Below, piece after piece: positions 6,537-55,112 of a DNA stretch of 64,000 nucleotides (position 1 is its first letter; each line of letters opens with the position of its first letter). Below the pieces are notes generated by a model that worked only from the letters and a program-made list of their open reading frames with translations, did not search any database and was not told where the DNA came from. Where the stretch lies: NCBI RefSeq assembly GCF_003855255.1, contig NZ_CP034072.1, forward strand, positions 1,426,001-1,490,000, given 5' to 3'. Origin of the DNA: Mycolicibacterium nivoides. GTDB taxonomy: Bacteria; Actinomycetota; Actinomycetes; Mycobacteriales; Mycobacteriaceae. A program made the position numbers and the translations under genes.

Positions 6537-6590
6537 GCTGGCCGGCCCTCCCATTTTCAACGGGTGTGACGCCGGACACTATCGGTCATT

Positions 6591-6604: not shown

Positions 6605-6633
6605 TGAAACTCGACGCGAGTCAGTCGGTGGGT

Positions 6634-8169: not shown

Positions 8170-8798
8170 TCGTGCTCACTCGCAATCGAATTGACGGCGG
8201 CCGCGGCCATGGCGCTGCCACCGCGCCGGCCGGTCACCACCAGATAGGACATGCCACGCGGACGCTCGATCAGCTCCTGCTTGGACTGCGCCGACCCGAC
8301 GAAACCGACAGGTCCGCCCAGCACCGCCGCCGGGACGGGCGCGCCCTCGTCGATCAGTTCCAGCAGCCGGAACAGCGCCGTCGGCGCGTTGCCGATCGCC
8401 ACCACCGCGCCGCCGAGGCGGTCGGCCCACAGGTCGACGGCGGCCGCCGAGCGGGTGAATCCCAACTTCGCCGCCACCTCCGGGGCGCGGGGATCGGCCA
8501 CCAGCGAGACGACCTCGTTGTCGGCGGGCAGCCGCGATCGGGTGATCCCGGCCGCGACCATCGATGAATCGCACAGCACCGGGGCGCCGGCGGCGAGCGC
8601 GGCATGCGCCCTGGTCACGACGTCGTCGGTGTAGGACACATGATCGGCGACATCCACCTGGCCACAGGTGTGGATCAGCCGGACGACCACCCGCGACACA
8701 TCGTCGGGGAAGCGCGACAGGTTCGCCTCGGCGCGGATCGTCGCGAATGACTGCCGGTAGATCTCGGCGGCGTCACGGATGTAGTCGAGCACGCGCAT
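8166..8798 (-). CDS. cobH: CobH, precorrin-8X methylmutase
   Basis: CobH moves the methyl group from C11 to C12 of precorrin-8X to give hydrogenobyrinic acid. The 210-residue length is standard. The catalytic His is visible in [11 protein letters not shown], and [12 protein letters not shown] and [10 protein letters not shown] are family signatures. It starts 3 nt after the cobG stop and overlaps cobIJ, so it is the middle gene of the minus-strand cob operon. Confidence 0.96.
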
Positions 8799-8801
8799 AC
8801 C

Positions 8802-9959
8802 CTACGGGGGCGCGATACGCAGCCGGTATCCGTCCTCGGTGGCGATCAGGACCTCGGCGGTGGGTGGGCTGCCGCAGGCCCGCTCGCAGCCCACGAAATG
8901 CCGGTGGATCTCTCGCCGGGGACCGGCGGAGTCGGCCTGGGCGGGCGCGTTGACCGCGTCGGCGGCATCGGCACGCACATCGGTGGCGGACTTGGCGCAC
9001 CCGGGGCTGCCGGTGCAGGCGCTGACCCGCAGCCACGGCGAGTTCTCGTCGAACACCAGCCCCAGCGGTGCCAGCACGCGCAGGGACGCGTCCGCGACGC
9101 CCTCGGTGACGTCGCCCACCAGCACCGAACGCCACGGGGTGATCACCAGCGGAGCCTCGATCGCGGCGAGGAAGTGGGCGGTCCGGGCCTGCAGTACCCC
9201 CAGCGGCACGGCCGCTCCCAGCGCCACCCGTTTGTCGCGCTGCTCGATCCAGCCGACCGGCGGCGTCACCGTCGGTGGCCAGGTGGCGCCGGGCGGGGCG
9301 TCGGCGGTCAGGCCGTCCAACAGTGCCGAATGGTCATCGAGTTCGGTTATCCGCCAGGCTTTTCCGCGGATGTCGACGAAACGTCTGGCCACCGTGATCA
9401 GGGTGGCGACCGCTTCACCGGTGTCCAGGCGCACCCCGGTGTCGCGCCCGGCCAGCAGCAGCGCGCAGGTGCCGTCATCACGGGCATGCACACCGGCATC
9501 GGCGTCGATACCGGATACGTCGCCGCGCCCGTCGTCCAGGCTGAACCAGAACCTGCCGGGCAACCCGGCCAGGGCCGGGTCGGCCTGGATGGCGCGGTCG
9601 AGGTCGGTCACAAGGGGGCGGATATCGATGACGCCGCCGGAGCGTCCGGACAACGGCGAGGCCACGATGTTGCGGGCCCGCTCATGTGTCGGTGACGGCA
9701 GCAGGCCGGCGCCGGCCAGTGCCGCGGCGGCCGCGTCGGTGTCGCTCACCGCGCGGATCTGGATGTTGCCGCGGGAGGTCAGTTCCATTGCTGGAGAGCC
9801 GAACTGCTCGGCCACCTCGGCCAGTGCCGTCAATTGGGCCGCGGCGACCATCCCGCCGGGAAGCCGAATCCGCACCAGGGCACCGTCGGCGGCCTGGTGC
9901 ACCGTCAGTGCACCTGGGCAGGCGTCCTGGTCGCGGGTCCGGGTCATGTCGCCCGCCAT
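8802..9959 (-). CDS. cobG: CobG, precorrin-3B synthase (Fe-S monooxygenase)
   Basis: CobG uses O2 to form the C20-hydroxy-gamma-lactone precorrin-3B, the step that marks the aerobic cobalamin route. The protein has the nitrite/sulfite reductase-like ferredoxin fold, and its [4Fe-4S] cysteines are visible as CTGSPGC and CERAC, about residues 315-362. The ATG at 9959 is chosen. An ATG at 9947 is equally possible, and an upstream GTG at 9992 lies inside a CRP-like palindrome and is less likely. It is the first gene of the minus-strand operon cobG-cobH-cobIJ and diverges from the cobN side. Confidence 0.93.
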   Translation of the reverse strand: MAGDMTRTRDQDACPGALTVHQAADGALVRIRLPGGMVAAAQLTALAEVAEQFGSPAMELTSRGNIQIRAVSDTDAAAAALAGAGLLPSPTHERARNIVASPLSGRSGGVIDIRPLVTDLDRAIQADPALAGLPGRFWFSLDDGRGDVSGIDADAGVHARDDGTCALLLAGRDTGVRLDTGEAVATLITVARRFVDIRGKAWRITELDDHSALLDGLTADAPPGATWPPTVTPPVGWIEQRDKRVALGAAVPLGVLQARTAHFLAAIEAPLVITPWRSVLVGDVTEGVADASLRVLAPLGLVFDENSPWLRVSACTGSPGCAKSATDVRADAADAVNAPAQADSAGPRREIHRHFVGCERACGSPPTAEVLIATEDGYRLRIAPP

Positions 9960-9977
9960 CTTACTTTCAGGGATTGT

Positions 9978-9993
9978 TGTGACATCGGTCACA
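9978..9993. promoter_or_regulatory. CRP/FNR-type palindrome TGTGACATCGGTCACA
   Basis: The 16-mer matches TGTGA-N6-TCACA exactly, the consensus for CRP-family regulators including the mycobacterial cAMP receptor protein. It lies 19 nt upstream of the cobG ATG and about 290 nt upstream of cobN. A second inverted repeat (CAGGTT-N4-AACCTG) overlaps its right end at 9992-10007. Binding is inferred from sequence only. Confidence 0.55.
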
Positions 9994-10130
9994 GGTTCGG
10001 AAACCTGTTCGGTCGCTTACAGATCGGCGATTTTCGCGGCGTCGGAACGTACCGTTTATGAGGATTCCCGGGACCACCGGTACCGGGAAGTTGAAACACT
10101 TGACCAAGGCTCTGATGAAAGGAGCGATCC

Positions 10131-10238
10131 ATGCTTGCATTTGGTGCATTCGCCGCATTCGTCCTGGTGCTCGTCGTGGCCGCAGGCTCGCCGTACCGGC
10201 AGTCGTGGCACGACCGCTTCGGCGAGACCCAGCCCTGA
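10131..10238 (+). CDS. 35-residue putative membrane peptide upstream of cobN
   Basis: A short frame begins with ATG 4 nt after AAAGGAGCGATCC, a strong Shine-Dalgarno sequence with AGGAG about 6 nt from the start. It encodes 35 residues: an N-terminal hydrophobic stretch (FGAFAAFVLVLVVAAG) long enough for one membrane helix, then a polar tail containing WHDRF. It ends 45 nt before the first possible cobN start on the same strand, so it may be co-transcribed. I do not recognise a family. It could be a small membrane protein or a translated leader. Confidence 0.5.
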   Translation: MLAFGAFAAFVLVLVVAAGSPYRQSWHDRFGETQP

Positions 10239-41705: not shown

Positions 41706-43169
41706 TCAGGACAGCCGGACCGCGATGCGGCGTAGCAGTTTGGTGGCCATGATGTATGCGGTGGCCCCGAACGGCCATTGCGAGACGATCCGTCCGCTGC
41801 CGGCCTGGAAGTAGTTGTTCACCTGCGCCCACACCGTTTTCGACAGCCGGTCCTGGATCCACTCGTTGTAGAGGGCGAATGCGGAGCGGCGGACCTCGAT
41901 GGTGCTGGCGCCGGTGCTGGCTGCCCGTGCGATCAGGCTGGCGGTGAAGGCGGCCTGCGCCTCGTAGAAGGACACCAGAGGGATCGAGTTGGTGTTGGGT
42001 CCGTACATGATGAAGAAGTTGGGGAACTTCGGCACCATCATGCCGAGGAAGGCCTCGGGCTCACCTTGCCACTGTTCGTGCAGCTCCGCACCGCCGCGGC
42101 CGTGGACACGGTAGTTGCCGAGGTAGTTCGCGGCATCGAATCCCGTTGCCAGCACGATGATGTCGAGGTCGTGCTCGTCGCCGTTGGCGTCGACCGCTCC
42201 GGTCTTGGTGAGTCCTTTGACGGCATGCGGGACGAGGGTGACTTTCGGGTTGCGCAGCGACGCGTAGTAGGTGTCGCTGACGACGGTGCGCCGGCCCTCG
42301 AACGGGAACTTCGGGGTGGCCAGCTCGAGTAGGTCCCGTCGGTCGCCGAGCTCTCTGTTGAGGAACTCCACCGCGGCCTTGTGTTTGCGGCGGTTGGTGC
42401 GGCCGGTGGACTTGGCATGGCTGGAGCCGTATTGCCGGACGTCGTAGCCGAGGTACAGCTTCAGCCGCCGCCAGGCGTAGACCGGCGCCAACCGGTTGAG
42501 TTGGCGCTGCAGCGGGGTGAAGTCGTGGCTGTTCTTCGGCAGCAGCCAGTTCGGCTCGATCTGGAAGATCTTGACCTCGGTTCCGACCCGTTCCGCCTCG
42601 GTGACGACCTGCACCGCCGACGATCCGGTGCCGACGACGCCGATCGCCTTGCCCGTCATGTCCAAGCCGTCGATCCAGCGCGACGTGTGGCAGATCGCAC
42701 CGTCGAAATCGCCTTGTTCGCGGGCGAACGGCGGGATCAGGGGGATGTTGAGGAAGCCGACGGCGCTGATCACCGCGGTGAATATGCCGTGGTCCGTGCC
42801 GGAGTCGGTGCTGATCGTGTAGGTGTGGTCGGTATCGGACCAGGTGACGTCGTTGACCTTCTCGTTGAACCGGATGCGGCGGGGCAGGTCCCACTTGGTG
42901 GCGACGTGGTCGAGGTAGGCGCCGAGTTCACGCCAGCCCGCGTGCGTTCGGGTCCAGTCGTAGCGTTCGTAGGAGAACGAGTAGATGTGGGATTCCAGAT
43001 CGACCTCGGCGCCGGGGTAGCGGTTGTGGAACCAGGTACCGCCGAGCGCCGGGGCCTGCTCGAAGATGACGAAATCCTCGATGCCCTTCTTGCGCAAGGC
43101 GATCGCCGCGGCGATGCCGCTGAAGCCGGATCCGATTATTGCGACGCGCGGTTTTGCTGGCCGGCCCAT
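41706..43169 (-). CDS. Baeyer-Villiger-type flavin monooxygenase
   Basis: A 487-residue class B flavoprotein monooxygenase. It has FAD motif VAIIGSGFSGIAAAIALRKK, NADPH motif AIGVVGTGSSAVQVV and, between them near residue 154, FDGAICHTSRWID, which fits the FxGxxxHTxxW fingerprint of Baeyer-Villiger enzymes but with Ile instead of Pro/Asp after Trp. These enzymes turn ketones into esters or lactones. The gene has its own promoter with a copy of the operator found elsewhere in this block, so it likely belongs to the GntR regulon. The substrate is unknown. Confidence 0.9.
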   Translation of the reverse strand: MGRPAKPRVAIIGSGFSGIAAAIALRKKGIEDFVIFEQAPALGGTWFHNRYPGAEVDLESHIYSFSYERYDWTRTHAGWRELGAYLDHVATKWDLPRRIRFNEKVNDVTWSDTDHTYTISTDSGTDHGIFTAVISAVGFLNIPLIPPFAREQGDFDGAICHTSRWIDGLDMTGKAIGVVGTGSSAVQVVTEAERVGTEVKIFQIEPNWLLPKNSHDFTPLQRQLNRLAPVYAWRRLKLYLGYDVRQYGSSHAKSTGRTNRRKHKAAVEFLNRELGDRRDLLELATPKFPFEGRRTVVSDTYYASLRNPKVTLVPHAVKGLTKTGAVDANGDEHDLDIIVLATGFDAANYLGNYRVHGRGGAELHEQWQGEPEAFLGMMVPKFPNFFIMYGPNTNSIPLVSFYEAQAAFTASLIARAASTGASTIEVRRSAFALYNEWIQDRLSKTVWAQVNNYFQAGSGRIVSQWPFGATAYIMATKLLRRIAVRLS

Positions 43170-43179
43170 CGTGTCTCCC

Positions 43180-43216
43180 GTCTAAAGAACTATAGGTCCA
43201 GTATTTAGACCATTAA
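43180..43216. promoter_or_regulatory. Candidate GntR operator upstream of the monooxygenase
   Basis: TATAGGTC (43191-43198), nine bases, then GACC (43208-43211). It is nested in a longer inverted repeat GTCTAAA (43180-43186) / TTTAGAC (43204-43210). Over 26 positions it matches the site at 51532-51557 at about 20. It lies 11-47 nt upstream of the monooxygenase start. Confidence 0.6.
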
Positions 43217-43260
43217 TGAGGATGTCAATCCCCCAAGGTCAGTTGGGGAAGTGGGTTTGG

Positions 43261-43989
43261 TTACTTGATCTGTGCGGTCCATCCGCCGTCGACGACGAGG
43301 TCGGTGGCAGTGACGAACGATGCGTCCTCGGACAGCAGAAATGCTATGGCGCCGGCGATTTCGGCAGGCATGCCGAGCCGTCCCAACGGTGTCCGGCTCT
43401 CCATGTCGGCACGGCGGCCGGGATTGTCGACGTAGAGGTAGTCGATCATCGGGGTGAGGATCGCGCCGGGGCACACGGTGTTGGCCCGGATCCCTTCCGG
43501 GGCGAGCTGCAGCGCCAGGGCTCTGGTCAGCGAGACCACCGCCGCTTTGCTCACCTGATAGGCATCCAGCGGGGAGTCCATCCCCCGGATACCGGCGGTA
43601 CTCGCGACGTTGACGATGCTCTTGCCGGAGCCGCGTCGCAGATGCTCGACGGCGGCCGTGGTGACCTTGCGCAGACCGTGCAGATTCACCCCGAGCGTGA
43701 CGTCCCAGACGGACTCGTCGATGTCGAGTGTGGAGCCGTCCCGGTCGAACAAGGCCACTCCGGCGGCATTCACCAGATAGTCCAGCCCCTTGCCGCCCAG
43801 CCGATCGAACAGCTCGGCCGGATCGCCGCCCCGTAGGTCGAACGCGACGTAGTCGGCCTCGGGCGGCAGCGCAGCCGCCCGCTCACCGAGATCGGTGGCG
43901 ATGACGTGGACACCGTCGGCGACCAGGCGGGCCACCGTGGCCGAGCCGATGCCGCCACCGGCGCCGGTGACCAGTGCGGTGCGTGTCAT
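43261..43989 (-). CDS. Short-chain dehydrogenase/reductase
   Basis: A 242-residue classical SDR. It has the NAD(P) motif ALVTGAGGGIGSATV, NAAG in the middle, the catalytic Ser in VNVASTAGI, YQVSK for Tyr and Lys, and the closing VVDGGWTAQ. The acidic residue after the second beta strand (IATDLGE) suggests NAD rather than NADP. The start overlaps the stop of the upstream esterase gene, so this is the last gene of the minus-strand operon that begins at 51470. Probably it oxidises an alcohol intermediate; the substrate is unknown. Confidence 0.9.
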   Translation of the reverse strand: MTRTALVTGAGGGIGSATVARLVADGVHVIATDLGERAAALPPEADYVAFDLRGGDPAELFDRLGGKGLDYLVNAAGVALFDRDGSTLDIDESVWDVTLGVNLHGLRKVTTAAVEHLRRGSGKSIVNVASTAGIRGMDSPLDAYQVSKAAVVSLTRALALQLAPEGIRANTVCPGAILTPMIDYLYVDNPGRRADMESRTPLGRLGMPAEIAGAIAFLLSEDASFVTATDLVVDGGWTAQIK

Positions 43990-44930
43990 CGGGCCGGCTG
44001 CTCGGTCAGTGCCAGGGCATCGGCCAGCCGCCGGCCGGCGAAGGTCATGGCGTCAGTGGCGGTGGGGAACACCTCGTCGAGGCCGAAGAACCCGTGCACC
44101 ATGCCCGGGGTCTGGTGGCTGCGCACCGTGACACCGGCCGCGCGCAGCGCAGTCTCGTAGAGCTCACCCTGCGGGCGGATCGGATCGCATTCGGCCAGGA
44201 TGATCGTCGCCTCCGGCAGCCCGGCCAGGTTGGCGTCGAGGACGTTGACCCTCGGGTCCGACGCGACGTCGGGGCCGGGCAGGTAGTTGTCCTGATGCCA
44301 TTGCAGCTCATCGCGTTCCAGCATCACGCCGTCGTACTCGGAGTCCATGCCGCGGACCAGGTCGGTGGTGGTGACGGGGTAGACCAGCAGTTGATGGCGC
44401 AGCACCGGGTCCCCAGCGTCGCGGTAGTGCAGCGCGACGGCCGCCGCGAGATTGCCACCGGCGCTGTCGCCGGCCACCGCGATCCGGCGGGCATCGACGC
44501 CGAGTCCGGATTGCGGGTTGCGGGCCCACTCGACGGCGTCGATCGCGTCGTTGACGGCGGTGGGGAAGCGGGCTTCGGGGCCGCGGCGGTATCCGACGGA
44601 GAGCACGGCACTGCCCGACGCGTTGGCCAGCAGCCGGGTGGCGGCATCGTGGGAGTCAACGCTGCCCAGCAGCCAGCCGCCGCCGTGGTAGTACACCGTC
44701 AGGGGCAGGTCGGCGGCATCTGTGGGCAGGTAGAGCCGGCCGGGGATGCCTTCGCCGTCACGGGTCCCGATGGTGAGATCCACGACGCGGTGCACCGCGG
44801 GTTTGGCCAGTGCGGCGAAGGTGTTCTCGAAGTTTTCCCGGGCGGTGGGCACCGGCAGCAGGTGGGCGTTGGGACGGTCCGAAGCCTTGGAGTCGTCGAG
44901 CATCTTCTTGGCGATGGGGTCGATCGGCAT
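43986..44930 (-). CDS. Esterase of the hormone-sensitive-lipase family
   Basis: A 314-residue alpha/beta hydrolase. The oxyanion motif YYHGGGWLLGS and nucleophile elbow VAGDSAGGNLA define the HSL branch; the acid and His are expected in ECDPIRPQGE and PGMVHGFFG, which are present. It could cleave an ester made by the nearby Baeyer-Villiger-type enzyme, but this is inference. It overlaps the downstream SDR by 4 nt and follows the glutamine-synthetase-like genes after a 30-nt gap. Confidence 0.9.
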   Translation of the reverse strand: MPIDPIAKKMLDDSKASDRPNAHLLPVPTARENFENTFAALAKPAVHRVVDLTIGTRDGEGIPGRLYLPTDAADLPLTVYYHGGGWLLGSVDSHDAATRLLANASGSAVLSVGYRRGPEARFPTAVNDAIDAVEWARNPQSGLGVDARRIAVAGDSAGGNLAAAVALHYRDAGDPVLRHQLLVYPVTTTDLVRGMDSEYDGVMLERDELQWHQDNYLPGPDVASDPRVNVLDANLAGLPEATIILAECDPIRPQGELYETALRAAGVTVRSHQTPGMVHGFFGLDEVFPTATDAMTFAGRRLADALALTEQPAR

Positions 44931-44960
44931 GGTTCTCCTGTGTGTCGGTGGGTTGGCGTG

Positions 44961-46340
44961 CTAGACGCGTTCGTAGTAGCGGCGGGACTCCCAGTCGGTC
45001 ACGGTGTGGGAGTCGAAGGCCTCCAATTCGCTTTGGGCGGAGGCCAAGAGGTGGTCGAAGACCTCGTCGCCGAAGGCCGCGCGGGCCATCTTGCTCTCGG
45101 CGAACAGGTCGATGGAGCGGTGCAACGACGTGGGCACGGTGGTGATGTCATCGCCGGTCCAGGCATTCCCGCTGAAGATCTCGGGGATCGCCATCTCGTG
45201 ATCCAGCCCGTCGAGGCCCGCCGCGATGGTGGCGGCGTAGGCGTAGTAGGGGTTGACGTCGGCGCCGGGGATCCGGTTCTCCACCCGGTACGACGGACCG
45301 GAGCCGACCAACCGGAACGCGCACGAACGATTGTCTTCGCCGAGGGCGATGGCGGTGCCGGCGAACTGGTCGGGCTGGAATCGCTTGTAGGAGTTGATGG
45401 TCGGCGCGAACATCAAACTGATCTCGGCGGCGTGATGCAACTGGCCCGCGACGAACGAGCCGAACCGTCGAGACATCCCGTGCCGGTCGTCGGCCCAGCA
45501 CAGCGGCTCTGCACCGTCGGCCGACCACAGGCTGACGTGCAGGTGACACGACGATCCGACCTCGTCGATCTTGGGCTTGGCCATGAAGGTGACCGTCAGA
45601 TCCGCCGCGTGGGCCAGTTGCTTGACGCCGTACTTGAACAGCACGTGGCGATCGGCCATCGCCAACGAATCGCAGTAGTCCAGGGTGACCTCCTGCTGAC
45701 CCAAACCCCACTCGGGTTTCGAGGACTCCACGGACACACCGAATTCGGGCATCTGGTTGCGGATCCGCTCGATGAACCAGTCGTCGCGCGCGGACTGGAT
45801 CATCTGATAGTCCGAGCGGTAGTCCGACATCATCTTCAGGTTCTGGTAGCCCAGTTCCCAGGCCTGCCGTGGTGGTGTCGCGGCCAGATAGAACTCGAGC
45901 TCGGAGGCGAACTTGAACGACAGTCCCCGTTCCCGGGCCCGGGCCAATTGGGTGCGCAGGATGGTGCGGGGCGCCACGGCCAGCAGCTCGTCGGAGTCCA
46001 TGGGATAGGCGTCGCAGATCACCAGTGCGGCCGACGGCTCCCACGGAACTCTGCGCAGCGTCGCCAGATCCGGAACGAGCCGGATGTCCACCCAGCCGTT
46101 GTCGGCATTGGACACCGGGAGGTCCAGCGGATTCATCTCCAGATCGACCCCGAAGATGAAGCTGCTGGCATTGACCCCGGAGCCCTGCAGGCCCAGGCTG
46201 CGGAAGGCCGGAATCGTCAACCGTTTACCGACCAGGCGCCCGTAGGGATCGGGCGCGGCGCAGATCACGGTGGTGATCTCGCCCGCGGCGGCCAGCTCCT
46301 CGAATCGGTCGAGGTTCAGCACAGGTGGCGTGGTGCTCAT
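44961..46340 (-). CDS. Glutamine-synthetase-like ligase, copy 1 (gamma-glutamylation type)
   Basis: A 459-residue type I glutamine synthetase fold. Catalytic features are kept: metal Glu residues in FASELEFYL, SKPEWGLGQQE with the two later Glu, the His in GSSCHLHVSLW, NSYKRF and RVENRIPGADVNPYYAYAA. Sequence and context set it apart from housekeeping GlnA: it lacks the adenylylation-loop context and is next to a second GS-like gene. Related enzymes (PuuA, IpuC, AtdA1) attach glutamate to amines. The ATG at 46340 overlaps the neighbouring GS stop. The amine substrate is unknown. Confidence 0.88.
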   Translation of the reverse strand: MSTTPPVLNLDRFEELAAAGEITTVICAAPDPYGRLVGKRLTIPAFRSLGLQGSGVNASSFIFGVDLEMNPLDLPVSNADNGWVDIRLVPDLATLRRVPWEPSAALVICDAYPMDSDELLAVAPRTILRTQLARARERGLSFKFASELEFYLAATPPRQAWELGYQNLKMMSDYRSDYQMIQSARDDWFIERIRNQMPEFGVSVESSKPEWGLGQQEVTLDYCDSLAMADRHVLFKYGVKQLAHAADLTVTFMAKPKIDEVGSSCHLHVSLWSADGAEPLCWADDRHGMSRRFGSFVAGQLHHAAEISLMFAPTINSYKRFQPDQFAGTAIALGEDNRSCAFRLVGSGPSYRVENRIPGADVNPYYAYAATIAAGLDGLDHEMAIPEIFSGNAWTGDDITTVPTSLHRSIDLFAESKMARAAFGDEVFDHLLASAQSELEAFDSHTVTDWESRRYYERV

Positions 46341-47626
46341 TGGTGCTCCAGGTGTCGATGCAGTTCCCAGGTGGTGATCGTGGTGCGCAACCACTGGTCA
46401 TAGCGTTCCATTTCGGCTCGCCGGGTGGCGGCGAAGGAGGTGCAGAAGGTCTTGCCCAGCAGGTCGGCGGTCCAGGCCGAGTTCTCGAACCGCGCCAGTG
46501 CGCTACCGAGGTCGCCCGGCAGCTCGGCGGGTTCTGCGTCGCGGGCCGGCACCGGGAGCTCATCGAGCAGGCCGTGCAGACCGGCGGCCAGCAGGGCCGC
46601 CCCGACGATGTAGGGGTTGGCGTCGGCTCCGGGTCTGCGATGCTCGACCCGGGCCGATCTTCGGTTGGGCAGCAGAACGCGGGCCGCGGTGCTGCGGTCG
46701 TCGTAGCCCCAGGTCGCGGCGGTGGGGGTGAACATCTCCGGGTCGATGCGCTTGTAGGAGTTGATGTTCGGGTTGAGCATCAGCACGGTGTCGGCCATTC
46801 CGTCCAGCAGCCCGGCGAGGTAGTGGCTGCCTTCGGTGGACAGCGCCCCCGACGCGTCGGCGAAGACGTTGACCCCGTCCCGGTTCAGGCTGGAATGCAC
46901 GTGTCCGCCGGCCCCTGACTTGTCGGCGAAGGGCTTGGCCATGAAGCTCGCGTGCATGCCCCGCTCTGCGCACAGGTCACGGAGATACTGCCGGGCCCGG
47001 ACCGCGTTGTCGGCGGCCCGGACGGCGGGCGCCGGGGCCAGGGTGAACTCGAAGAACCCGGGACCGAGTTCGGTGTGGAACATCTCGACCTCGATGCCGA
47101 CCTGGTCCATCCGATTGATGAACTCGGTTGCCAGGCTGTGTATCTCGGCACCTCGGGTGAGGCTGTAGGCGTTCTCGGTACGGCCCCGGGGCGTGAACCC
47201 GGGCAGCACTGCCGCCGGGGAGGCGCCGGCCTCGAAGATCCACATCTCATACTCGAAGCCCAGCACCGGGTCCAGGTCCAGGTCGCCGTACCGGTCGACG
47301 AGACCACCCAGCACGGCTCGTGGCGACAGTTCCAGCGGTTTTCGGTCGGCATCGACCAGCTCGGCGATGACGGCGTCGGTCCCGGGCCGCCAGGGCAGTG
47401 CGATGCGGGTGGATTCATCAGGAATCAGCAGGGCATCTGGGTAGCCGTTGGCCGCGCTGCTGAACGGAGTGTCGGTGACGTCGTCGGTGAGGGACAGACC
47501 GTAGACGATGGTGCAGAACGCCAGGTCCGACGACCCGTGGGTCTTGCTCGAGCGGATCAGCTTGCCGCGTAGGCCCAGGTCGTAGTCGGCGACCTCGAGC
47601 TGCGTCGTTGCCACGGTGTCAGTCAT
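46337..47626 (-). CDS. Glutamine-synthetase-like ligase, copy 2
   Basis: A 429-residue GS-fold protein, only distantly similar to its neighbour. It has GFEYEMWIFE for the metal Glu, HTELGPGFFEFT where most GS have an ExxxGQxE pattern, GAGGHVHSSLN for the His, NSYKRIDPEMF, and RVEHRRPGADANPY. Loss of the GQ residues suggests an altered substrate pocket. It overlaps the copy 1 start by 4 nt, and its own start overlaps the end of the Cys-cluster gene by 8 nt. The two may act as different ligases or as one hetero-oligomer. Confidence 0.86.
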   Translation of the reverse strand: MTDTVATTQLEVADYDLGLRGKLIRSSKTHGSSDLAFCTIVYGLSLTDDVTDTPFSSAANGYPDALLIPDESTRIALPWRPGTDAVIAELVDADRKPLELSPRAVLGGLVDRYGDLDLDPVLGFEYEMWIFEAGASPAAVLPGFTPRGRTENAYSLTRGAEIHSLATEFINRMDQVGIEVEMFHTELGPGFFEFTLAPAPAVRAADNAVRARQYLRDLCAERGMHASFMAKPFADKSGAGGHVHSSLNRDGVNVFADASGALSTEGSHYLAGLLDGMADTVLMLNPNINSYKRIDPEMFTPTAATWGYDDRSTAARVLLPNRRSARVEHRRPGADANPYIVGAALLAAGLHGLLDELPVPARDAEPAELPGDLGSALARFENSAWTADLLGKTFCTSFAATRRAEMERYDQWLRTTITTWELHRHLEHQ

Positions 47627-48698
47627 GCTGCGTACTCCTGATACTCGTTGTCGGGCTCGGTCGCACCGCCGGGTCGCGGCCGACCCGGCGGTAGACGTGG
47701 TCGGGTACGTCGGCGGGGTCGTGGTAGACCCACCACGTGCACGAGGTCGCCGGGCTGTCGGGCGTCCAGGTGGGCGGGTCGATCACCCGGGTCGGATAGC
47801 CCAGCCGGTCGATCGGCATGACCTCGTTGAGCTGGCAGCAGTGCACGCAGTACGAGCAGATGCCGACCGTGTTCCAGGCCCAGTCGTGCGCCTCGGTGGT
47901 GACAGCGAACTCGAACGGGGCGCCGGACCGCGGGGCGTCGTCGGTGACCCGGGCGTCCAGGGACCGGCCTCCCGATCCGCAGGGGGCGAAGCGGAAACCG
48001 GTCCGGCCGGGTTCCTCGATCAGCTCGATGTCCCCTTGACGGCCGATTCCGGTCAGGTGCGCGTGGAACCCGTCGACGATCGCCACCATCAGCTGGTGGG
48101 CCGATTCGGTCCACGGCTGATTGTCCAATGAGTAACGGCGGGTGTGGATTTCGTACCAGTCGCTCATCAGGAAGTCCCACAGCTCGCCGAGCGAGGATTC
48201 ACCCACCAGCTTGACCGCGATGTCGACCATGCCGGCCACCCGGTCGACCGCTCGGTCGTGGATCTGCTGCCATACCTGTCGCGCGGACTCGATCAGTTCG
48301 GCCGCCGCGGGATCCTGATCCCGGCAGCCGCGCGCGGCCTGGGCGACTGCGTCGGTGTAGTCCGGCCACTCGGCCCCGATCCCGGCCATTGCCCGACCGC
48401 CGACCAGCCCGGTGAGCCGGGCCACCGCGGCGTCGAGATCGGCCTCGGCGACCTGGTGGTCGAGGATCCACCGCGACGTGGCTTCGGGCCACCGGTCGTA
48501 GACGTCGCGCAGTTCGTCGGCTTCGGTAACCGATATCTCGACGAGTTGCGCTGCGGCCTCCCAATCCCGGCGCCGCACATGCTCGATCGCGGTGCGGAAG
48601 GTGCAGCGGGCCAATTCGGCCCAGCTTCCGGCGCGCGCATTGCGATGAAGGGAGGGTTCGTAGACTACGACCGCCGGTTTCGGGGATGGGGCGCTCAT
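47619..48698 (-). CDS. Unrecognised Cys-cluster protein of the amine/glutamylation operon
   Basis: A 359-residue protein I cannot place in a family. It is soluble. The N-terminal half is helical with many Trp and acidic residues (AELARCTFRTAIEHVRRRDW, PEATSRWILDHQVAEADL). The C-terminal half contains a cysteine cluster GICSYCVHCCQLNEVMP followed by RLGYPTRVIDPP and SCTWWVYHD. The C-x2-C-x2-CC arrangement plus a later Cys could bind Zn or an Fe-S centre. Overlaps with the SDR upstream (ATGA) and the GS-like gene downstream make it a core operon member. The function is open. Confidence 0.85.
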   Translation of the reverse strand: MSAPSPKPAVVVYEPSLHRNARAGSWAELARCTFRTAIEHVRRRDWEAAAQLVEISVTEADELRDVYDRWPEATSRWILDHQVAEADLDAAVARLTGLVGGRAMAGIGAEWPDYTDAVAQAARGCRDQDPAAAELIESARQVWQQIHDRAVDRVAGMVDIAVKLVGESSLGELWDFLMSDWYEIHTRRYSLDNQPWTESAHQLMVAIVDGFHAHLTGIGRQGDIELIEEPGRTGFRFAPCGSGGRSLDARVTDDAPRSGAPFEFAVTTEAHDWAWNTVGICSYCVHCCQLNEVMPIDRLGYPTRVIDPPTWTPDSPATSCTWWVYHDPADVPDHVYRRVGRDPAVRPSPTTSIRSTQHD

Positions 48699-49465
48699 GT
48701 CAGTTCGAATCCGCCGTCGACCCGCAGGTCGGACCCGGTGATGTAGGCGGCCTGGTCGCTGAGCAGAAACGCTGCGGCCGAGGCGATCTCGTCCGGCCTC
48801 GCGAATCGGCCGGCCGGTACCCGTGGTGCCAGTGTGGGCGGCAGGCTGTTCGTGTCGCCGTGGGTGGCGGCCATCGGCGTCGCCACGAAACCGGGGGAGA
48901 TGCTGTTGACCCGGACTCCGTCGGCGGCCAGGGCGCGGGCACTGGTCTGGGTGAGCATGCGCAATCCGGCCTTGGACGCGGCGTACTGCGGGGTGGGGTC
49001 CGGATCGGACAGCGCGATTACCCGGTGTGCTTCGATCGAGGTGATGTTGACGATGGCACCGGCCTTCGCGGCCCGCAGTGACGGGGTCAGGGCGTCGATC
49101 AGGTTGTAGGCACCGATCAGGTTGATCTCCAGGCAGCGGGCCCACTGCTCGCGGCTCACCCCGGCGAAGCCGGTGTTGTCGATGATGCCCGCGCAGTTGA
49201 CCAGGTAGCTGATGGTGCCGACGTTCGCCCCGTGCGCCTGCAGCACCGCCACCAGGTTGGTATCGCGGACGTCGGCCGCACAGCACACCTGTAGCTCGGG
49301 TCCATAGTTCGGATCCGGGTCGGGTTGGCGGATGTCCAGCCGGATGGTCCGGATCCCGGCGGACATGAGGGTGGCCGCGGTGGCGGCGCCGATGCCTGAT
49401 GCGGCACCCGTCACCACCGCGTCACCGCCGCTGAACGACAGCGCGAAAGATCTTCCGGCCGTCAC
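48695..49465 (-). CDS. Short-chain dehydrogenase/reductase
   Basis: A 256-residue classical SDR with VVTGAASGIGAATAATL, NCAG, the Ser in VNITSIEAH, YAASK and the end motif RVDGGFELT. RLDIRQ after the second strand suggests NAD use. The GTG start overlaps the DUF1116 stop and the TGA overlaps the Cys-cluster gene start, so it is translated with both. It is one of three SDRs in the operon, which implies successive alcohol/ketone oxidations. The substrate is unknown. Confidence 0.9.
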   Translation of the reverse strand: MTAGRSFALSFSGGDAVVTGAASGIGAATAATLMSAGIRTIRLDIRQPDPDPNYGPELQVCCAADVRDTNLVAVLQAHGANVGTISYLVNCAGIIDNTGFAGVSREQWARCLEINLIGAYNLIDALTPSLRAAKAGAIVNITSIEAHRVIALSDPDPTPQYAASKAGLRMLTQTSARALAADGVRVNSISPGFVATPMAATHGDTNSLPPTLAPRVPAGRFARPDEIASAAAFLLSDQAAYITGSDLRVDGGFELT

Positions 49466-50742
49466 CGGTCGCCGAACCTACGTGTGTGCTCGGCCATGGC
49501 GTTGGCGAAGCACTCCCGTGGTGCCCGGATCACCCCGGCGCCGATCTGGCCGCCGTCGCGCCCGGCCAGCCCGACGTCCATGACCGGCAGTACCCCGGTA
49601 TCGAGCACCTTGCGCGCGTCGATCCCGGTCGGGGTGCCCCGGAAGGAGAAGAGCGGTATCCGGTAGGTGCTGTTCTCGCCGTGGGTGATGGCGTACATCT
49701 CTTGGTTGCGCTCGATCATCACCTCGGGTGCGCCGCCCTGGTACTCCTGCAGTGACAGTGCACAGGCCTGGGCGAAGCCGCCGAGTCCGACGGTCTCGGT
49801 GATCGGTGATTCCCCGCCCATCCAGGTGATCTCGTCTTCGGTGTGGCCGTCGAACAACTTGCCCTGGTGGATCGGCGGCGGGCCCTCGAACCAGGTGTCG
49901 CCCAGCCCGGCCAGCTTGATCGCGAAACCGCGGCAGGAAAAGGCCATCGCCGAGACCAGGGTGGAGCCGGCAACGGTCATGGCGTCGGCGGAAGCCTTGG
50001 CTGCCGCCATGGACAACCGCAGGAAGAAGTAGTCGTTCTCGGCCAGGTGCAGCATGGTCTCGCGCACCCCGGCGATGTTCTGGCCGGCCATGTCCAGCAC
50101 CGCGGGCAGGATTTCCCGGTTGAACAGGATCGAGGCGGCCGCATTGCGGCTGTGCACCTCATCGCCCATCCGCAATGCGCGGGCGATCAGTGGCTTGAGA
50201 GCGACGCCGCCCTGGCGGCGGATCGCGTCACCGACCACGGGGGCCAGCACCTCGTTGACATGACGCAGTCGGTCGCGCACTCCGTCGTCGTAGCAGCCGT
50301 AGTTGAGCCGTCTCGGCTCCTTGCCCTCGTAGAAGTTGCAGAATCCGAGATTGCCGTGGGCCCGGTTCACCACGACGAACACCGGCATGGATGCGGTGTA
50401 GATGCCGGCCAGCGAGCCCACCGCGGCGTAGTCGTGGCAGCCGCCCACCTCGATCACGCCGCTGTCGAACTTGGCGATGGCGTCGTCGCGGTCGGTGGCC
50501 AGCCCTTCGAACAGGGCGCCACCGATGAGGGCTTCACGCTGACCGCCGCTGTATGCCGGCCAGGGCATGGGTGCACCCGAGGTCAGCACCAGGTTGTCAC
50601 GGAAGCCGGGCAGTACCTCGCGCGCGGGCGCCACGTCTATCACCCAGGGATCGGCAGCATCCAGACGGGCGAAGGCCTCGGCATTGGCCGCGTCGATATC
50701 GATCGTGGCCGCATCGGTGTCGGTGCTGATCTGGGTGCTCAC
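49462..50742 (-). CDS. DUF1116 protein, YlbE-like (oxamate carbamoyltransferase subunit family)
   Basis: A 426-residue protein matching the DUF1116 family along its length. Family segments seen are MPWPAYSGGQREA, ALRMGDEVHSRNAA, SPITETVGLGGFAQA and GGQIGAGVIRAPRECFANAM, which align with E. coli YlbE as I recall it. YlbE is encoded with FdrA and YlbF and was reported as part of an oxamate carbamoyltransferase. Neither partner is visible here, so the enzyme must work alone or with another neighbour. It overlaps SDR genes on both sides by 4 nt. The reaction is inferred only. Confidence 0.86.
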   Translation of the reverse strand: MSTQISTDTDAATIDIDAANAEAFARLDAADPWVIDVAPAREVLPGFRDNLVLTSGAPMPWPAYSGGQREALIGGALFEGLATDRDDAIAKFDSGVIEVGGCHDYAAVGSLAGIYTASMPVFVVVNRAHGNLGFCNFYEGKEPRRLNYGCYDDGVRDRLRHVNEVLAPVVGDAIRRQGGVALKPLIARALRMGDEVHSRNAAASILFNREILPAVLDMAGQNIAGVRETMLHLAENDYFFLRLSMAAAKASADAMTVAGSTLVSAMAFSCRGFAIKLAGLGDTWFEGPPPIHQGKLFDGHTEDEITWMGGESPITETVGLGGFAQACALSLQEYQGGAPEVMIERNQEMYAITHGENSTYRIPLFSFRGTPTGIDARKVLDTGVLPVMDVGLAGRDGGQIGAGVIRAPRECFANAMAEHTRRFGDR

Positions 50743-51470
50743 CAGGCCACCACGCCGCCGTCGACCAGCAGGGTCTGTGCGGTGATGAAGGAAGCTCGCG
50801 GGGACAGCATGAACTCCACCGCCTCTGCCACCTCCTCAGGTTCCCCGATGCGCTTGAGCATCGCGTATCCGGCGCTGACCTCTTCACCGCCGGACACCCG
50901 GGCCATCGACGGGCTCATGGGGGCGCGGATGACCCCGGGCGCGATGTTGTTGACCCGGATTCCTCTCGGCGCCAATTCCTCGGCCAGGTAGCGGGTATAG
51001 GACGCGATACCGGCTTTGGTGGCGCCGTACACCGAAGCGCCGCGGAACCGGCCGAAATGGCCGGTCAAGCTGCCGATGTTGACGATCGCGCTGCCCTGGG
51101 TCAGCAGCGGGGCCACCACGTCGGTCACCCGGGCCATACCGGCGATGTTCACCTGGAACATCAACTCCAGCTTTGCCTCGTCAAGTTCACCGAGGAACGA
51201 ATCACGCAGGACACCAGCACAATTCACCAGACCGGCTACCGTCTCGCCGTCGGCGACGGCCAACCCCACCGCCTCGGCGATGCTGCCGCGGTCGGAGACA
51301 TCCATCGCCACGGTGAGCGCACCCTGCAGGCCGTCCCGTTCCAGGTCGAGTTCGTCGACGGCAGGCTTGAGATCGGCTGCCACAGGTACGTAGTCGCTCT
51401 GCAGCAGGCGGCGGCAGATGGCCTGTCCGATCACGCCGGCACCGCCCGTCACGATCACTTTGTTAGTCAA
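50739..51470 (-). CDS. Short-chain dehydrogenase/reductase, first gene of the operon
   Basis: A 243-residue SDR with VIVTGGAGVIGQAICRRL, NCAG, Ser in VNIGSLTGH, YGATK and LVDGGVVAW. The second position of the usual GxGIG motif is varied (GGAGVIG), still compatible with nucleotide binding. The start is TTG at 51470, with no ATG or GTG nearby. It heads the minus-strand run that continues to 43261 and diverges from the GntR gene; the operator at 51532-51557 lies between them. The substrate is unknown. Confidence 0.88.
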   Translation of the reverse strand: MTNKVIVTGGAGVIGQAICRRLLQSDYVPVAADLKPAVDELDLERDGLQGALTVAMDVSDRGSIAEAVGLAVADGETVAGLVNCAGVLRDSFLGELDEAKLELMFQVNIAGMARVTDVVAPLLTQGSAIVNIGSLTGHFGRFRGASVYGATKAGIASYTRYLAEELAPRGIRVNNIAPGVIRAPMSPSMARVSGGEEVSAGYAMLKRIGEPEEVAEAVEFMLSPRASFITAQTLLVDGGVVAW

Positions 51471-51531
51471 TCCACGATCCCTTCGAATGGTCAGCTTCCC
51501 TGGACTGCACCAAGTTTCGTGCGATAAGGGC

Positions 51532-51557
51532 TAAAGGTCAAGTTTTTAGGACTTTAA
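51532..51557. promoter_or_regulatory. Candidate GntR operator between operon and regulator
   Basis: TAAAGGTC (51532-51539), nine bases, then GGAC (51549-51552) in place of GACC, followed by TTTAA. It matches the monooxygenase operator at about 20 of 26 positions and lies about 62 nt upstream of the SDR TTG and 84 nt upstream of the GntR ATG, so it can control both directions. Confidence 0.6.
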
Positions 51558-51640
51558 ACTTCTATGGCCGATTGGGCAACGCAAACGCATTCCTCTGCCA
51601 GGCGGTGCGGTAGCGTTGGGGCCATCCGAAGGGGGGTAGT

Positions 51641-52375
51641 ATGTCGACAGCCAAGCCGGCATTGGTTCCGGTCCGCCAGATTCCCGCCCATGAGCTGGTC
51701 GTTGACCAGATGCGCAGGGCCCTGGAACTCGGCCAGTTCCGTCCCGGCGACAGGTTGCCCACCGAACGCGAACTCTCCGACATGCTCGACGTGTCTCGCA
51801 CCACCGTGCGCACCGCCGTCGGATTCCTGGAACGGGAGGGGCTGATCGCGGTGCGGCGCGGCCGTGGCGGTGGATTCACCGTCCAGGCGCCGGAGTACGA
51901 CCCGGTCGAGATGCGCCGGGAGATGCGCCGCAACAAACGCGAGGTCCGAGACGCATTCGACTACCGCATCATCGTCGAGACGGGTGCCACCCGCCTGGCT
52001 GCCGAGCGTCGCCGTGCCATCGATCTGACCGGCCTGCACAAGCTGCTCAACGGTATGGACACCGCGTTGCAGACCGCTATGGAAGACCAGTCGGCTCAGC
52101 ACACCACCGACTTTCAGACCCTGGACTCCGCGTTTCACCTCGGTATCGCCCAGGCCGCGCAGAATGACCGCCTGCTGGACGCGGTCGCGGACGCTCGCCG
52201 GAGGATGTGGCTGCCGGTCGGTGCGATCTTCGGACGCCTGGAGCCCAACGCCAACGACTACCACGAGTCGATCCTCGAAGCGATCGAGAACCGGGACCCC
52301 GAGTTGGCCGCCGCGCGGATGGAGGCCCACATCAACGACACCCGGCATACCGTCGAGTCGTGGCTCAAGCGCTGA
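51641..52375 (+). CDS. GntR-family (FCD) transcriptional regulator
   Basis: A 244-residue GntR regulator. The winged helix is FRPGDRLPTERELSDMLDVS followed by RTTVRTAVGFLEREGLI, and the C-terminal half is an all-helical FCD effector domain whose metal-binding pattern (DSAFHLGIAQAA, then HINDTRH near the end) is present. FCD regulators sense carboxylates or amino-acid-like ligands. AAGGGGGG precedes the ATG by about 6 nt. It faces away from the operon and is the obvious candidate for binding the shared operator. Confidence 0.92.
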   Translation: MSTAKPALVPVRQIPAHELVVDQMRRALELGQFRPGDRLPTERELSDMLDVSRTTVRTAVGFLEREGLIAVRRGRGGGFTVQAPEYDPVEMRREMRRNKREVRDAFDYRIIVETGATRLAAERRRAIDLTGLHKLLNGMDTALQTAMEDQSAQHTTDFQTLDSAFHLGIAQAAQNDRLLDAVADARRRMWLPVGAIFGRLEPNANDYHESILEAIENRDPELAAARMEAHINDTRHTVESWLKR

Positions 52376-52440
52376 CGCACCCCTGAGGAAATGGGTGCGC
52401 TCGGTGCGACCCCGGTGGGGGTGGTGGGATCGCACCGAGC
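52376..52440. terminator. Two hairpins between convergent GntR and permease genes
   Basis: CGCACCC (52376-52382) pairs with GGGTGCG (52393-52399); GCTCGGTGCGA (52399-52409) pairs perfectly with TCGCACCGAGC (52430-52440). The 11-bp second stem probably stops transcription from both sides. Confidence 0.65.
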
Positions 52441-52451
52441 GCTCGTCCGCC

Positions 52452-53999
52452 TCACCGGCCTGCGGGGGATTCCGGTTCGGGGACGGGTTCGTGATCATCG
52501 AAGATCGTGCTGCCGATGCGCTCGTACAATTCTGGACGGGCTTTGCGCAGGTACAGGGCCACGGTCATCGACCCGGCGAACAGCCCCACCACGAGATACG
52601 GAATGGCCTTGAAGAACAAGGTATCCGAGGCCGCGCCCGCAGCGGCTTGCATGTTCGACGCCATCAGGTAGATCACGTAGACCATGCCGAGGCCGCCGAT
52701 GATCGGGGCCAGCAGCGTCCGCCACCAGCTCGCGGTCTCGGGGTGCTGCTTCTTGACGTGGAAGTAGATCACGGTCGCCACGGAGCACATGGTCTGCACA
52801 ATCAGGAGCAGCAACGTGGCCAGGATCGCCACCAGTACGAAAAGGTCCGCATAGGGGTCTGATCCGGTGAGCGAACAGATGGCGACCAGCGCCGCGGCGA
52901 ATACGCTCTGGGTCAGCGAGGCCACCCACGGGGAGGCATGTTTGGGATGCGCCTCGCCGAGCCGACGCCAGAACAGGCCGTCGCGACCGAATGCGAACAG
53001 GTAGCGGGCGGCGGAGTTGTGGATAGCCAAGGCGCAGGCGAACGATCCGCCCACCACGAGCCATTCGAAGACCGTTACCGCCCAAGGGCCGAGGTACTGG
53101 GCGGTGGGTACGTAGAGAAGATCGAACGGGGTTGGCCCGGATGCGAGTTCGACCGCTTTGGCCGGGCCGTTGCCGACCACGACGCCCCAGGAGATGAACG
53201 TGTAGAACACCCCGATACCGATCACGGCGATCATGGTGGCCCTCGGGACGATGCGCTTCGGGTCCTTGGACTCTTCTCCGTAGATCGCGGTCGATTCGAA
53301 TCCGACCCACGACCAGAATGCCATCAGCAGACCGAGCCCGACCACACCGCCGGCCACTCCGTTGGTATTCAGCGCGGTCAGCGGGCTGAGCGAGGTGAAG
53401 CTCATGCCGTCGGGATGGTGGGCCAGGCCGGCGACCGCGGTGAGGCTCAGCATGCCGATCTCGCACACCAGCACGACGCCGAGAACCTTTGCGGCTACTG
53501 AGATGTCAAAATGTGACAGGGCTGCGATGGCGACCAGGCCGACTACGGCGTAGATCTCCCACGGCAGGTCGAGTCCGAACTGGGTGGTGAAGGCCTGATC
53601 GGCGAAAGCCGAGAAGATTCCGACCAGCCCGGCTTCCATCGTCATGTAGGTGACCATCGGCATGACGCCGGCGGCGAGCCCGGGAACCTTGGACCAGGCC
53701 CTGGACACAAAGGTATAGAACGCGCCGGCCGCGGTGATGTGGCGGGCCAGGGCGACGAACCCGACGCTGAAGATCGACAGGACGATCGTAGCGATGACAA
53801 ACCCGCCCGGTGCGCCCAGTCCGTTACCGAAACCCACTGCGACAGGAAGGTTTCCGGTCATCGCGGTGATCGGTGCCGAGAATGCGACCACCATGAACAC
53901 CACACCGGCCAGTCCGATCGCTCCACGTTTCAGCGTGGCCGGCCCTTGCCCGGGCGCCGAATCTGATGCTCCGGTTCCCTGGTCGTAGCTGACTGCCAT
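52452..53999 (-). CDS. APC-superfamily amino acid/amine permease
   Basis: A 515-residue transporter with about 12 membrane helices. The N-terminal ALKRGAIG-like start and VVFMVVAFSAPITAMTGNLP form the APC helix 1 region, and FWSWVGFESTAIYGEESKDP is the typical loop. It should import an amino acid or amine by ion coupling. The ATG at 53999 is preferred over a GTG at 54005. Its promoter region contains a copy of the GntR operator and is shared with the divergent glutaminase gene, so uptake and first processing are probably co-induced. Confidence 0.9.
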   Translation of the reverse strand: MAVSYDQGTGASDSAPGQGPATLKRGAIGLAGVVFMVVAFSAPITAMTGNLPVAVGFGNGLGAPGGFVIATIVLSIFSVGFVALARHITAAGAFYTFVSRAWSKVPGLAAGVMPMVTYMTMEAGLVGIFSAFADQAFTTQFGLDLPWEIYAVVGLVAIAALSHFDISVAAKVLGVVLVCEIGMLSLTAVAGLAHHPDGMSFTSLSPLTALNTNGVAGGVVGLGLLMAFWSWVGFESTAIYGEESKDPKRIVPRATMIAVIGIGVFYTFISWGVVVGNGPAKAVELASGPTPFDLLYVPTAQYLGPWAVTVFEWLVVGGSFACALAIHNSAARYLFAFGRDGLFWRRLGEAHPKHASPWVASLTQSVFAAALVAICSLTGSDPYADLFVLVAILATLLLLIVQTMCSVATVIYFHVKKQHPETASWWRTLLAPIIGGLGMVYVIYLMASNMQAAAGAASDTLFFKAIPYLVVGLFAGSMTVALYLRKARPELYERIGSTIFDDHEPVPEPESPAGR

Positions 54000-54043
54000 C
54001 ACCACCTGCCTTTCGATTGGTTGTCGGGAGCCTATGAGCGTAA

Positions 54044-54070
54044 AGGTCTAAAGACAAGACCCATAGACCT
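54044..54070. promoter_or_regulatory. Candidate GntR operator upstream of the permease
   Basis: TAAAGGTC (54041-54048), nine bases, GACC (54058-54061) repeats the operator pattern exactly. A wider inverted repeat AGGTCTA (54044-54050) / TAGACCT (54064-54070) overlaps it. It lies 42-71 nt upstream of the permease ATG. Confidence 0.6.
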
Positions 54071-54127
54071 AAAGTGTTGACGCGTGACATAACGTTTACG
54101 CGAGCATATTTCGGCGCGGGCCGTTTT

Positions 54128-54140
54128 GGTCTAAAAAGTA
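54128..54140. promoter_or_regulatory. Operator half-site upstream of the glutaminase
   Basis: GGTCTAAAAAGTA carries one arm (GGTC) followed by an A/T-rich run like the permease site, but the second arm is not kept. It is about 50 nt before the glutaminase ATG. Confidence 0.35.
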
Positions 54141-54188
54141 GTGATTTAACTGATCGTCATCCGGCAGGTCCGGGACAGGAGGTGGTAG

Positions 54189-55112
54189 ATGCCCGCGACG
54201 CGTTTGTTCCAGACTTCAGAACAGTCGTTGCGTGAGTACCTGCGTGCGGCCCAGGTGCGGGCGTGTCGCGCCGCGGCGGCCGGAAAGGTCAGCGCTCAGG
54301 TGCCGGCCCTGGCCGAGGTTGACCCGACGAGGTTCGCGATGGCCGTCGCCACCGTCGATGGTGCCGAGGCCCATATCGGCGAATCCGATGCCCGGTTCTC
54401 CATTCAGAGCCTGTCCAAGCTGTTCGCTTTGTGCGCACTGCTGCGGCATGAACCGGACGCCTGGTCGGCGGTGGGTTGGGGTCCGTCGGATGCGGGCTAC
54501 GGCTCGGTGGCCGATCTCGAGCACAACCAGTGGCGGCCGCGAAACCCTTTCGTGAACTCCGGGGCGCTGGTGGTCACCGACCGGCTGCTGATGCACAGCG
54601 GCGACACGGTCGCCGCGACGGTTGAGCTGCTGGGCGGTCGAACTGTTGCGGCGTCGGACGCCCGGGTCGCGCAGTCCGAGACCGCGACCGACCACCGAAA
54701 TTCGGCGATCGCCCATGTCCTGGCCGAGCACGGCCGATTGATCAACCCGATCGACGTGTTGCTGCCGCAGTATTTCGCACAATGCGCGATCACCGCGTCG
54801 GTGCGGACGCTGGCCCGTGCCGCACTGTTCCTCGCCGACAAGGACGGAGACCGGGCGGTGCTGGATCCGGAGACTGTTCGTCGCGTGAACGCGGTGCTGC
54901 TGATGTCCGGGATGTATGGGGCGGCAGGAGATATCGCCTACCGAATCGGACTGCCGGCCAAGAGCGGCATCGGCGGCGGGGTGCTGGCCGTCATGCCTGG
55001 CCGTGGCACGGTATGCGTGTGGAGCCCACCGCTGGACAGCGCCGGAAACTCGGCGGGCGGGGTCGCCGCGATCGAGGAATTCGCCCGCCGCGCGGGCTGG
55101 TCGGTCTTCTAG
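54189..55112 (+). CDS. glsA: GlsA-type glutaminase
   Basis: Glutaminase hydrolyses glutamine to glutamate and ammonia. The 307-residue protein has the beta-lactamase-like serine fold with the Ser-x-x-Lys motif in FSIQSLSKLF, NPFVNSGAL, and GMYGAAGDIAYRIGLPAKSGIGGG near the C-terminus. AGGAGG lies 7-8 nt before the ATG. In this block it may recycle glutamine or release glutamate for, or from, the gamma-glutamyl ligases; this is inference from context. The stop overlaps the convergent exported-protein gene by 4 nt. Confidence 0.93.
   Translation: MPATRLFQTSEQSLREYLRAAQVRACRAAAAGKVSAQVPALAEVDPTRFAMAVATVDGAEAHIGESDARFSIQSLSKLFALCALLRHEPDAWSAVGWGPSDAGYGSVADLEHNQWRPRNPFVNSGALVVTDRLLMHSGDTVAATVELLGGRTVAASDARVAQSETATDHRNSAIAHVLAEHGRLINPIDVLLPQYFAQCAITASVRTLARAALFLADKDGDRAVLDPETVRRVNAVLLMSGMYGAAGDIAYRIGLPAKSGIGGGVLAVMPGRGTVCVWSPPLDSAGNSAGGVAAIEEFARRAGWSVF

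Follow-up and report, generated by a model that had tools for sequence, protein, structure and literature searches.

A 64,000-nucleotide stretch of Mycolicibacterium nivoides DNA (contig NZ_CP034072.1, positions 1,426,001 to 1,490,000; hereafter the window) carries at window positions 41706-55112 a block of 12 genes that combines two glutamine synthetase (GS)-like ligases, GS1 and GS2, with three short-chain dehydrogenases (SDRs), a Baeyer–Villiger-type monooxygenase (BVMO), an esterase (EST), an AllG-family protein, a Cys/Trp-rich protein (CYS), a permease, a glutaminase and a GntR-type regulator. The block is accessory and movable, and it is probably one regulon with the GntR-FCD protein as its repressor. 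By tree and gene context, its AllG protein belongs to a separate and so far unrecognised branch of a family known from purine breakdown. We give about even chances to the proposal that the regulon supports growth on an imported amine, likeliest a 1,2-amino alcohol or an α-amino ketone, via the route set out below.

Composition and Conservation of the Block

An earlier note on this DNA had listed the genes of the block, and each of them was found again at the same coordinates. The features are:

41706-43169, minus strand: BVMO, FAD monooxygenase of the Baeyer–Villiger type (FMO-like/Pyr_redox_3; PDB neighbours; fingerprint)
43193-43213, minus strand: operator-like site 5' of BVMO (motif search)
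43261-43989, minus strand: SDR1, short-chain dehydrogenase (family match; YxxxK at 144)
43986-44930, minus strand: EST, HSL-type α/β hydrolase, esterase (Abhydrolase_3; HGGG, GDSAG; PDB esterases)
44961-46340, minus strand: GS1, GS-like glutamate-amine ligase (Gln-synt_C; Phe at the Glu327 column)
46337-47626, minus strand: GS2, second GS-like ligase (Gln-synt_C; Phe at the Glu327 column)
47619-48698, minus strand: CYS, Cys/Trp-rich protein without family assignment (homologue search, structure model)
48695-49465, minus strand: SDR2, short-chain dehydrogenase (family match)
49462-50742, minus strand: AllG/DUF1116 protein of the GS-linked clade (PF06545, 243.8 bits; tree and neighbours)
50739-51470, minus strand: SDR3, leading gene of the eight-gene operon (family match)
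51534-51554, minus strand: operator-like site between SDR3 and GntR (motif search)
51641-52375, plus strand: GntR-family (FCD) regulator (family match)
52452-54005, minus strand: APC-family permease (family match)
54043-54063, plus strand: operator-like site between APC and glutaminase (motif search)
54189-55112, plus strand: glutaminase (PF04960; TIGR03814, 288.6 bits, cut-off 255.4)

The minus-strand operon SDR3-AllG-SDR2-CYS-GS2-GS1-EST-SDR1 is tightly coupled, as the earlier note had described, but comprises eight genes rather than seven: From SDR3 to GS1 neighbouring genes overlap by 4, 4, 4, 8 and 4 nt, a gap of 30 nt separates GS1 (ATG at 46340 being preferred over GTG at 46394 as its start) from EST, and EST and SDR1 overlap by 4 nt. 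BVMO lies 91 nt past SDR1 behind its own operator-like site, and GntR and SDR3 as well as APC and glutaminase are divergent pairs. BVMO, the permease and the glutaminase have separate starts and stand outside the operon.

Two peptide patterns derived from an alignment of CYS were used to scan species genomes and yielded 33 loci in Mycobacteriaceae, Rhodococcus, Gordonia, Nocardioidaceae, other actinobacteria and alphaproteobacteria. The gene set recurs among them as a unit, with the nine genes from SDR3 to BVMO complete and in the same order and strand in 20 of the 33. Four incomplete loci are cut by contig ends (L017, L023, L029, L040); in L016 AllG was not seen and SDR3 is shortened, in L033 the cluster is rearranged, and L038 has no SDR2 match and an additional AMP-binding gene. 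The alphaproteobacterial loci L044, L045, L047 and L048 are divergent and combine GS2 and GS1 with CYS and some SDRs, the CYS of L048 being a contig-end fragment. Two further loci, from metagenome-assembled genomes (L041 and L042), are discussed with the proposed route. A chance neighbourhood is ruled out by the nine-gene order together with an exact motif that is unique to the block within the genome (see below).

The distribution is that of an accessory element: The whole set occurs on three Rhodococcus plasmids, CYS is present in 7 of 301 sampled family genomes (one of the seven being a partial match), and the other six of these genomes, 6 of 301, have a GS1 orthologue (E up to 1e-170). In the window genome the distance from the end of coaE to DUF402 is about 14 kb as against 19-3941 bp in relatives of the genus (19 measurable of 20 fetched), which confirms the earlier placement of the block between coaE and DUF402-uvrB. 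The block adjoins coaE in L016, L017, L018 and L020 of the 33 loci. L232 and L233, which have the most similar DUF402, keep there only the GntR gene (84% and 83% identical), between coaE and a secreted-protein gene in the place of the window's whole block, as though the other genes had disappeared from either side.

Two observations concern individual loci. L040 is recorded as a Bifidobacterium breve metagenome-assembled genome, shares its cluster form with two actinobacterial ones and is possibly a mis-binned contig. On two Rhodococcus plasmids, genes for a flavin reductase, an SDR and an N,N-dimethylformamidase β-like protein lie upstream of the block (L157 173-4239, L160 182-4247).

Operator-Like Sites and a Candidate Regulon

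A 21-bp motif with the core GGTC-N9-GACC is found at three places: in front of BVMO, in the SDR3/GntR intergenic region and in the one that separates APC from glutaminase. The exact pattern GKYCTAAANNNNNGACC has three matches in the 6.9-Mb genome, all of them inside the block; with up to one mismatch, 22 matches are found in total versus 68 for a control pattern. We trained a weight matrix on the cluster promoters and scored upstream stretches at a threshold of ≥9. Sites were found upstream of SDR3 (28/30), APC (27/27), glutaminase (15/16, 12 of the 15 being the one it has in common with APC) and BVMO (28/29), positives that are partly circular because the same promoters served for training and scoring. 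The matrix gave no such site at EST (0/30) or CYS starts (0/33); of 600 random stretches of 270 bp, 27 had one. Sites scoring ≥15 are confined to the three promoter places in most intact clusters; additional weaker sites, one or two per locus, occur in some cases near glutaminase or GntR. The short core GGTCTAAA is a weak marker, found upstream of SDR3 in 7/30, APC in 7/28, glutaminase in 5/16 and BVMO in 15/29 cases, and with one mismatch its frequency in the window is no higher than chance. No site scoring ≥15 was found near the GS- or AllG-containing loci L014, L015, L162, L163, L164 and L106 described below, and none scoring ≥8 in L232, L233 and L235; the solitary GntR genes therefore keep no such site.

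Because gene order is conserved and an operator-like site is shared, the case for one GntR-linked catabolic unit is firmer than before. We infer that the GntR protein binds the three sites and that repression is the sign of its action. What the earlier note had proposed, an inducible-looking unit for an imported amine that works by glutamylation and oxidation, thereby gains support, with the exception of carbamoyl transfer.

Ligases and Proposed Release of the Glutamyl Group

In both ligases the flap glutamate of ammonia-type enzymes is lost: The alignment column of Glu327 holds Phe in GS1, GS2 and an ethanolamine-type ligase of the same genome (L014); an aligned GlnA-type protein from this genome has Glu there. 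GlnA4 is reported to have Phe at this position (PMC6529630), and adjacent GS-like genes, MSMEG_3827/3828, are named in PMC7816997. GS1 and the L014 ligase share 43% identity. In its locus (C1:538000-557000) the latter is accompanied by a permease, a hydrolase of the C26 type, an aldehyde dehydrogenase, an SDR and a regulator of the GntR family, the combination that PMC6529630 describes for the utilization of ethanolamine. Beside the ligases of the window likewise stand a candidate amine importer and a regulator, APC and GntR, which share the motif.

A C26-type γ-glutamyl hydrolase is found near the block in at least 17 of the 33 loci (in L041 and L042 at 35% identity only) and a glutaminase in at least 14, both counts being lower bounds on account of contig ends. 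The window block contains no C26 hydrolase and has the glutaminase instead, and elsewhere in the genome there are four homologues that are only 36-41% identical to the cluster type. For this reason the completeness that the earlier note had ascribed to the pathway is doubtful in this genome, and we describe the system as working like γ-glutamylation catabolism rather than calling it a Puu or GlnA4 pathway.

A GS-Linked Branch of the AllG Family

The 73 rows of the AllG tree come from the window, from 25 of the 33 CYS loci, from three plasmids, from seven loci chosen out of 84 rows and from 37 of 38 other match rows, L089 having been filtered for length or a stop and the genome's own paralogue in L015 being included. 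Excluded CYS loci were L017 (fragment only) and L016, L029, L033, L044, L045, L047 and L048, which have no usable AllG. All 35 rows with at least 47% identity to the window AllG form one clade with a support of 100/100; the tree carries a long-branch warning, L163 being among the branches concerned. Within 7 kb of the gene, a GS-like gene occurs in 35/35 rows of this clade, carbamate kinase in 0/35 and FdrA/AllF in 0/35 (AllH was not looked for separately). The other 38 rows (<46% identity) have FdrA in 32 cases, a GS-like gene in none and neither in 6.

Of the clade rows 29 represent the window-type cluster. Independent contexts of GS-linked AllG are L015, L162, L163 (with glutaminase), L164 and two genes in L106. 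L015 (C1:1962000-1979000) is the second AllG-GS cluster of the genome and has an NCS1 permease, a C26 hydrolase and a LacI-type regulator. In another species and outside the tree, L235 (about 4959-10208) carries AllG (46%), an NCS1 permease, a GS-like ligase and a glutaminase upstream of or beside rpsA. L106 combines its two GS-linked AllG genes with three GS-like genes at one locus.

Since the family splits by tree and gene context, the name ‘oxamate carbamoyltransferase’ should not pass to the GS-linked branch. In Escherichia coli, transcarbamylase activity requires AllF, AllG and AllH together (PMC11326118). The separate clade and its AllF-free context next to GS-like genes disfavour a transcarbamylase, and the carbamoyl-transfer reading of the earlier note is accordingly left unsupported. 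Tentatively, and with greater reserve than for the amine pathway as a whole, we suggest that GS-linked AllG could be a new enzyme type that exchanges or cleaves the γ-glutamyl-N bond, possibly as a subunit in partnership with the GS-like ligase, within a new route in which Baeyer–Villiger oxidation and hydrolysis break glutamylated α-amino ketones down to a short acid, an aldehyde and free glutamine.

Oxidative Enzymes and CYS

The nearest PDB entries of the BVMO are steroid and cyclohexanone monooxygenases. At residue 155 it carries FDGAICHTSRWI, a match to FxGxxxHxxxW with Ile rather than Pro/Asp in the final position of the type I Baeyer–Villiger fingerprint, FxGxxxHxxxW(P/D). EST has HGGG and GDSAG motifs, matches PDB esterases and scores 277 bits against a chloramphenicol hydrolase model, below the cut-off of 500. 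An acetate-CoA ligase (Acs; 930 bits, cut-off 725) follows BVMO in all four intact Rhodococcus clusters, namely those of R. koreensis, R. opacus 1CP, R. pyridinivorans SB3094 and strain JS3073, where it aligns as two pieces; this position suggests acetate as the released acid. In R. wratislaviensis, whose cluster is rearranged, the ligase was not seen.

CYS has no Pfam or NCBIfam match and no PDB sequence match of weight, but 539 homologues at E<=0.001. Its structure model reaches a pLDDT of 91.6, the C-terminal part folded alone 83.2; the top alignments of this part, to TRAPP Bet3/TPC6 and V4R aromatic-sensor domains, are too weak for a fold claim. The residues invariant among 24 sequences include C240, C281, C284, H286, C287, C288 and C320, and our guess is a metal-holding, small-molecule-binding protein. 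A 29% homologue on RHA1 pRHL3 (L159 11872-12639) lies in a different context, beside keto-acid dehydrogenase and acyl-CoA genes.

Proposed Route and Alternatives

Reactions, their order and the substrate are what we infer from these genes. The amine would be taken up by APC and converted by GS1 and/or GS2 with ATP to a γ-glutamyl amide, in which it is protected. SDRs would oxidize a carbinol to the ketone, and BVMO would insert oxygen between the carbonyl and the amide-bearing carbon. EST would then cleave the ester into a short acid, which would be acetate for substrates with a terminal CH3-CHOH or CH3-CO group, and into a carbinolamide (N-hydroxyalkyl glutamine), which would fall apart into an aldehyde and glutamine. 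Release of glutamine would explain the glutaminase in the block; glutamate would be recovered by this enzyme or, in other lineages, by the C26 γ-glutamyl hydrolase. AllG and CYS would act in the same pathway, AllG perhaps by acyl-N/acyl-phosphate exchange, possibly with a GS-like ligase.

Several findings weigh against this route. Three SDRs, two ligases, AllG and CYS are more than its minimal form requires. The window block has no Acs, and the non-Rhodococcus loci gave only one match, of 26%. In L041 and L042 the orthologous BVMO is absent and a distant one present, and no AllG match was found in the four alphaproteobacterial relatives. Finally, C26 hydrolase and glutaminase occur together in several loci, so that the glutaminase may have a substrate other than a product of the pathway.

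Among the alternatives, a cyclic substrate deserves most attention, although we consider it unlikely: BVMO would convert an amine or amino ketone with an alicyclic or heterocyclic ring to a lactone, EST would open this lactone and the SDRs would process the products, with glutamylation as protection of the amine. The PDB neighbours of BVMO and the presence of several SDRs would suit such a substrate, whereas the Rhodococcus acetate-CoA ligase points to a released acetyl unit and a ring-specific enzyme was not seen in the block. If the route above applies, the substrate could specifically be 1-amino-2-propanol or aminoacetone, with the paired enzymes serving two enantiomers. These are the smallest compounds that would give acetate in this way, and GS1 resembles the ligase of the ethanolamine-type cluster; the genome, however, has bacterial microcompartment (BMC) shell genes at 6.27 Mb (L201, C1:6263000-6279000), with an SDR that scores 484-488 bits to PDB 6ci8/6ci9, the RMM compartment's aminopropanol dehydrogenase. 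A locus of this type has been proposed to use aminoacetone (PMC8156839, which cites Mallette and Kimber 2018). We therefore regard this specific choice as improbable, and a larger amino alcohol or amino ketone as at least as likely a substrate as 1-amino-2-propanol.

Detoxification of an amine-bearing antibiotic or xenobiotic in place of nutrition would fit the accessory, partly plasmid-borne distribution and the sub-threshold similarity of EST to chloramphenicol hydrolase, but importer, glutaminase and acetate-CoA ligase suit use as food, and we rate this reading as quite improbable. Least probable of all is a ureide- or oxamate-type pathway in which AllG would act as the carbamoyl-transferring enzyme on a ureido compound made ready by the remaining ones: It is suggested by the Pfam family name, oxamate carbamoyltransferase subunit AllG, and opposed both by the joint requirement for AllF, AllG and AllH in E. 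coli (PMC11326118) and by the neighbourhoods of the 35 clade rows, which contain neither FdrA nor carbamate kinase within 7 kb, whereas FdrA is present in 32 of the 38 others.

Comparison with Known Systems

The amino alcohol or amino ketone pathway favoured here is of a known kind. As far as our searches of openly licensed literature show, its enzyme set and the AllG branch are undescribed among the matches listed, in line with the earlier note, which knew of none with this set. Dehydrogenases and ligases that could previously only be listed are now grouped into a delimited regulon, whose legible operator-like site allows direct screening for the inducer and the substrate. Should the proposed cleavage prove correct, it would be a means of breaking a C-C bond adjacent to nitrogen that delivers this nitrogen directly to glutamine.

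In the Puu putrescine route the amine is likewise activated as a γ-glutamyl amide before oxidation. The same order, amide formation ahead of oxidation, applies to the GoaS aromatic-amine route (PMC11335346). Both differ from the window block, where oxidation would be performed by SDRs and BVMO and not by an aldehyde dehydrogenase or ring dioxygenase. The GlnA4/EpuRI ethanolamine pathway of Streptomyces coelicolor (PMC6529630) shares a Phe-type GS-like ligase, a permease, an SDR, an amidotransferase-type hydrolase and a regulator. In comparison, the window block has two ligases, lacks an aldehyde dehydrogenase and contains BVMO, esterase, AllG, CYS and glutaminase in addition. The RMM compartment relies on shell proteins and is not known to employ glutamylation or a BVMO in the manner of the block. 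Its likeness lies in amino-alcohol catabolism in the same genera (PMC8156839) and in the BMC locus of this genome. E. coli oxamic transcarbamylase AllFGH (PMC11326118) contains an AllG-family protein, as does the block with its PF06545 match. The window AllG differs from it by its separate clade and GS-like neighbours, AllF and carbamate kinase not being matched within 7 kb. Ketone degradation by a BVMO and an esterase proceeds from the ketone via the ester to an acid and an alcohol, and the block would tie these steps to glutamylation and nitrogen recovery.

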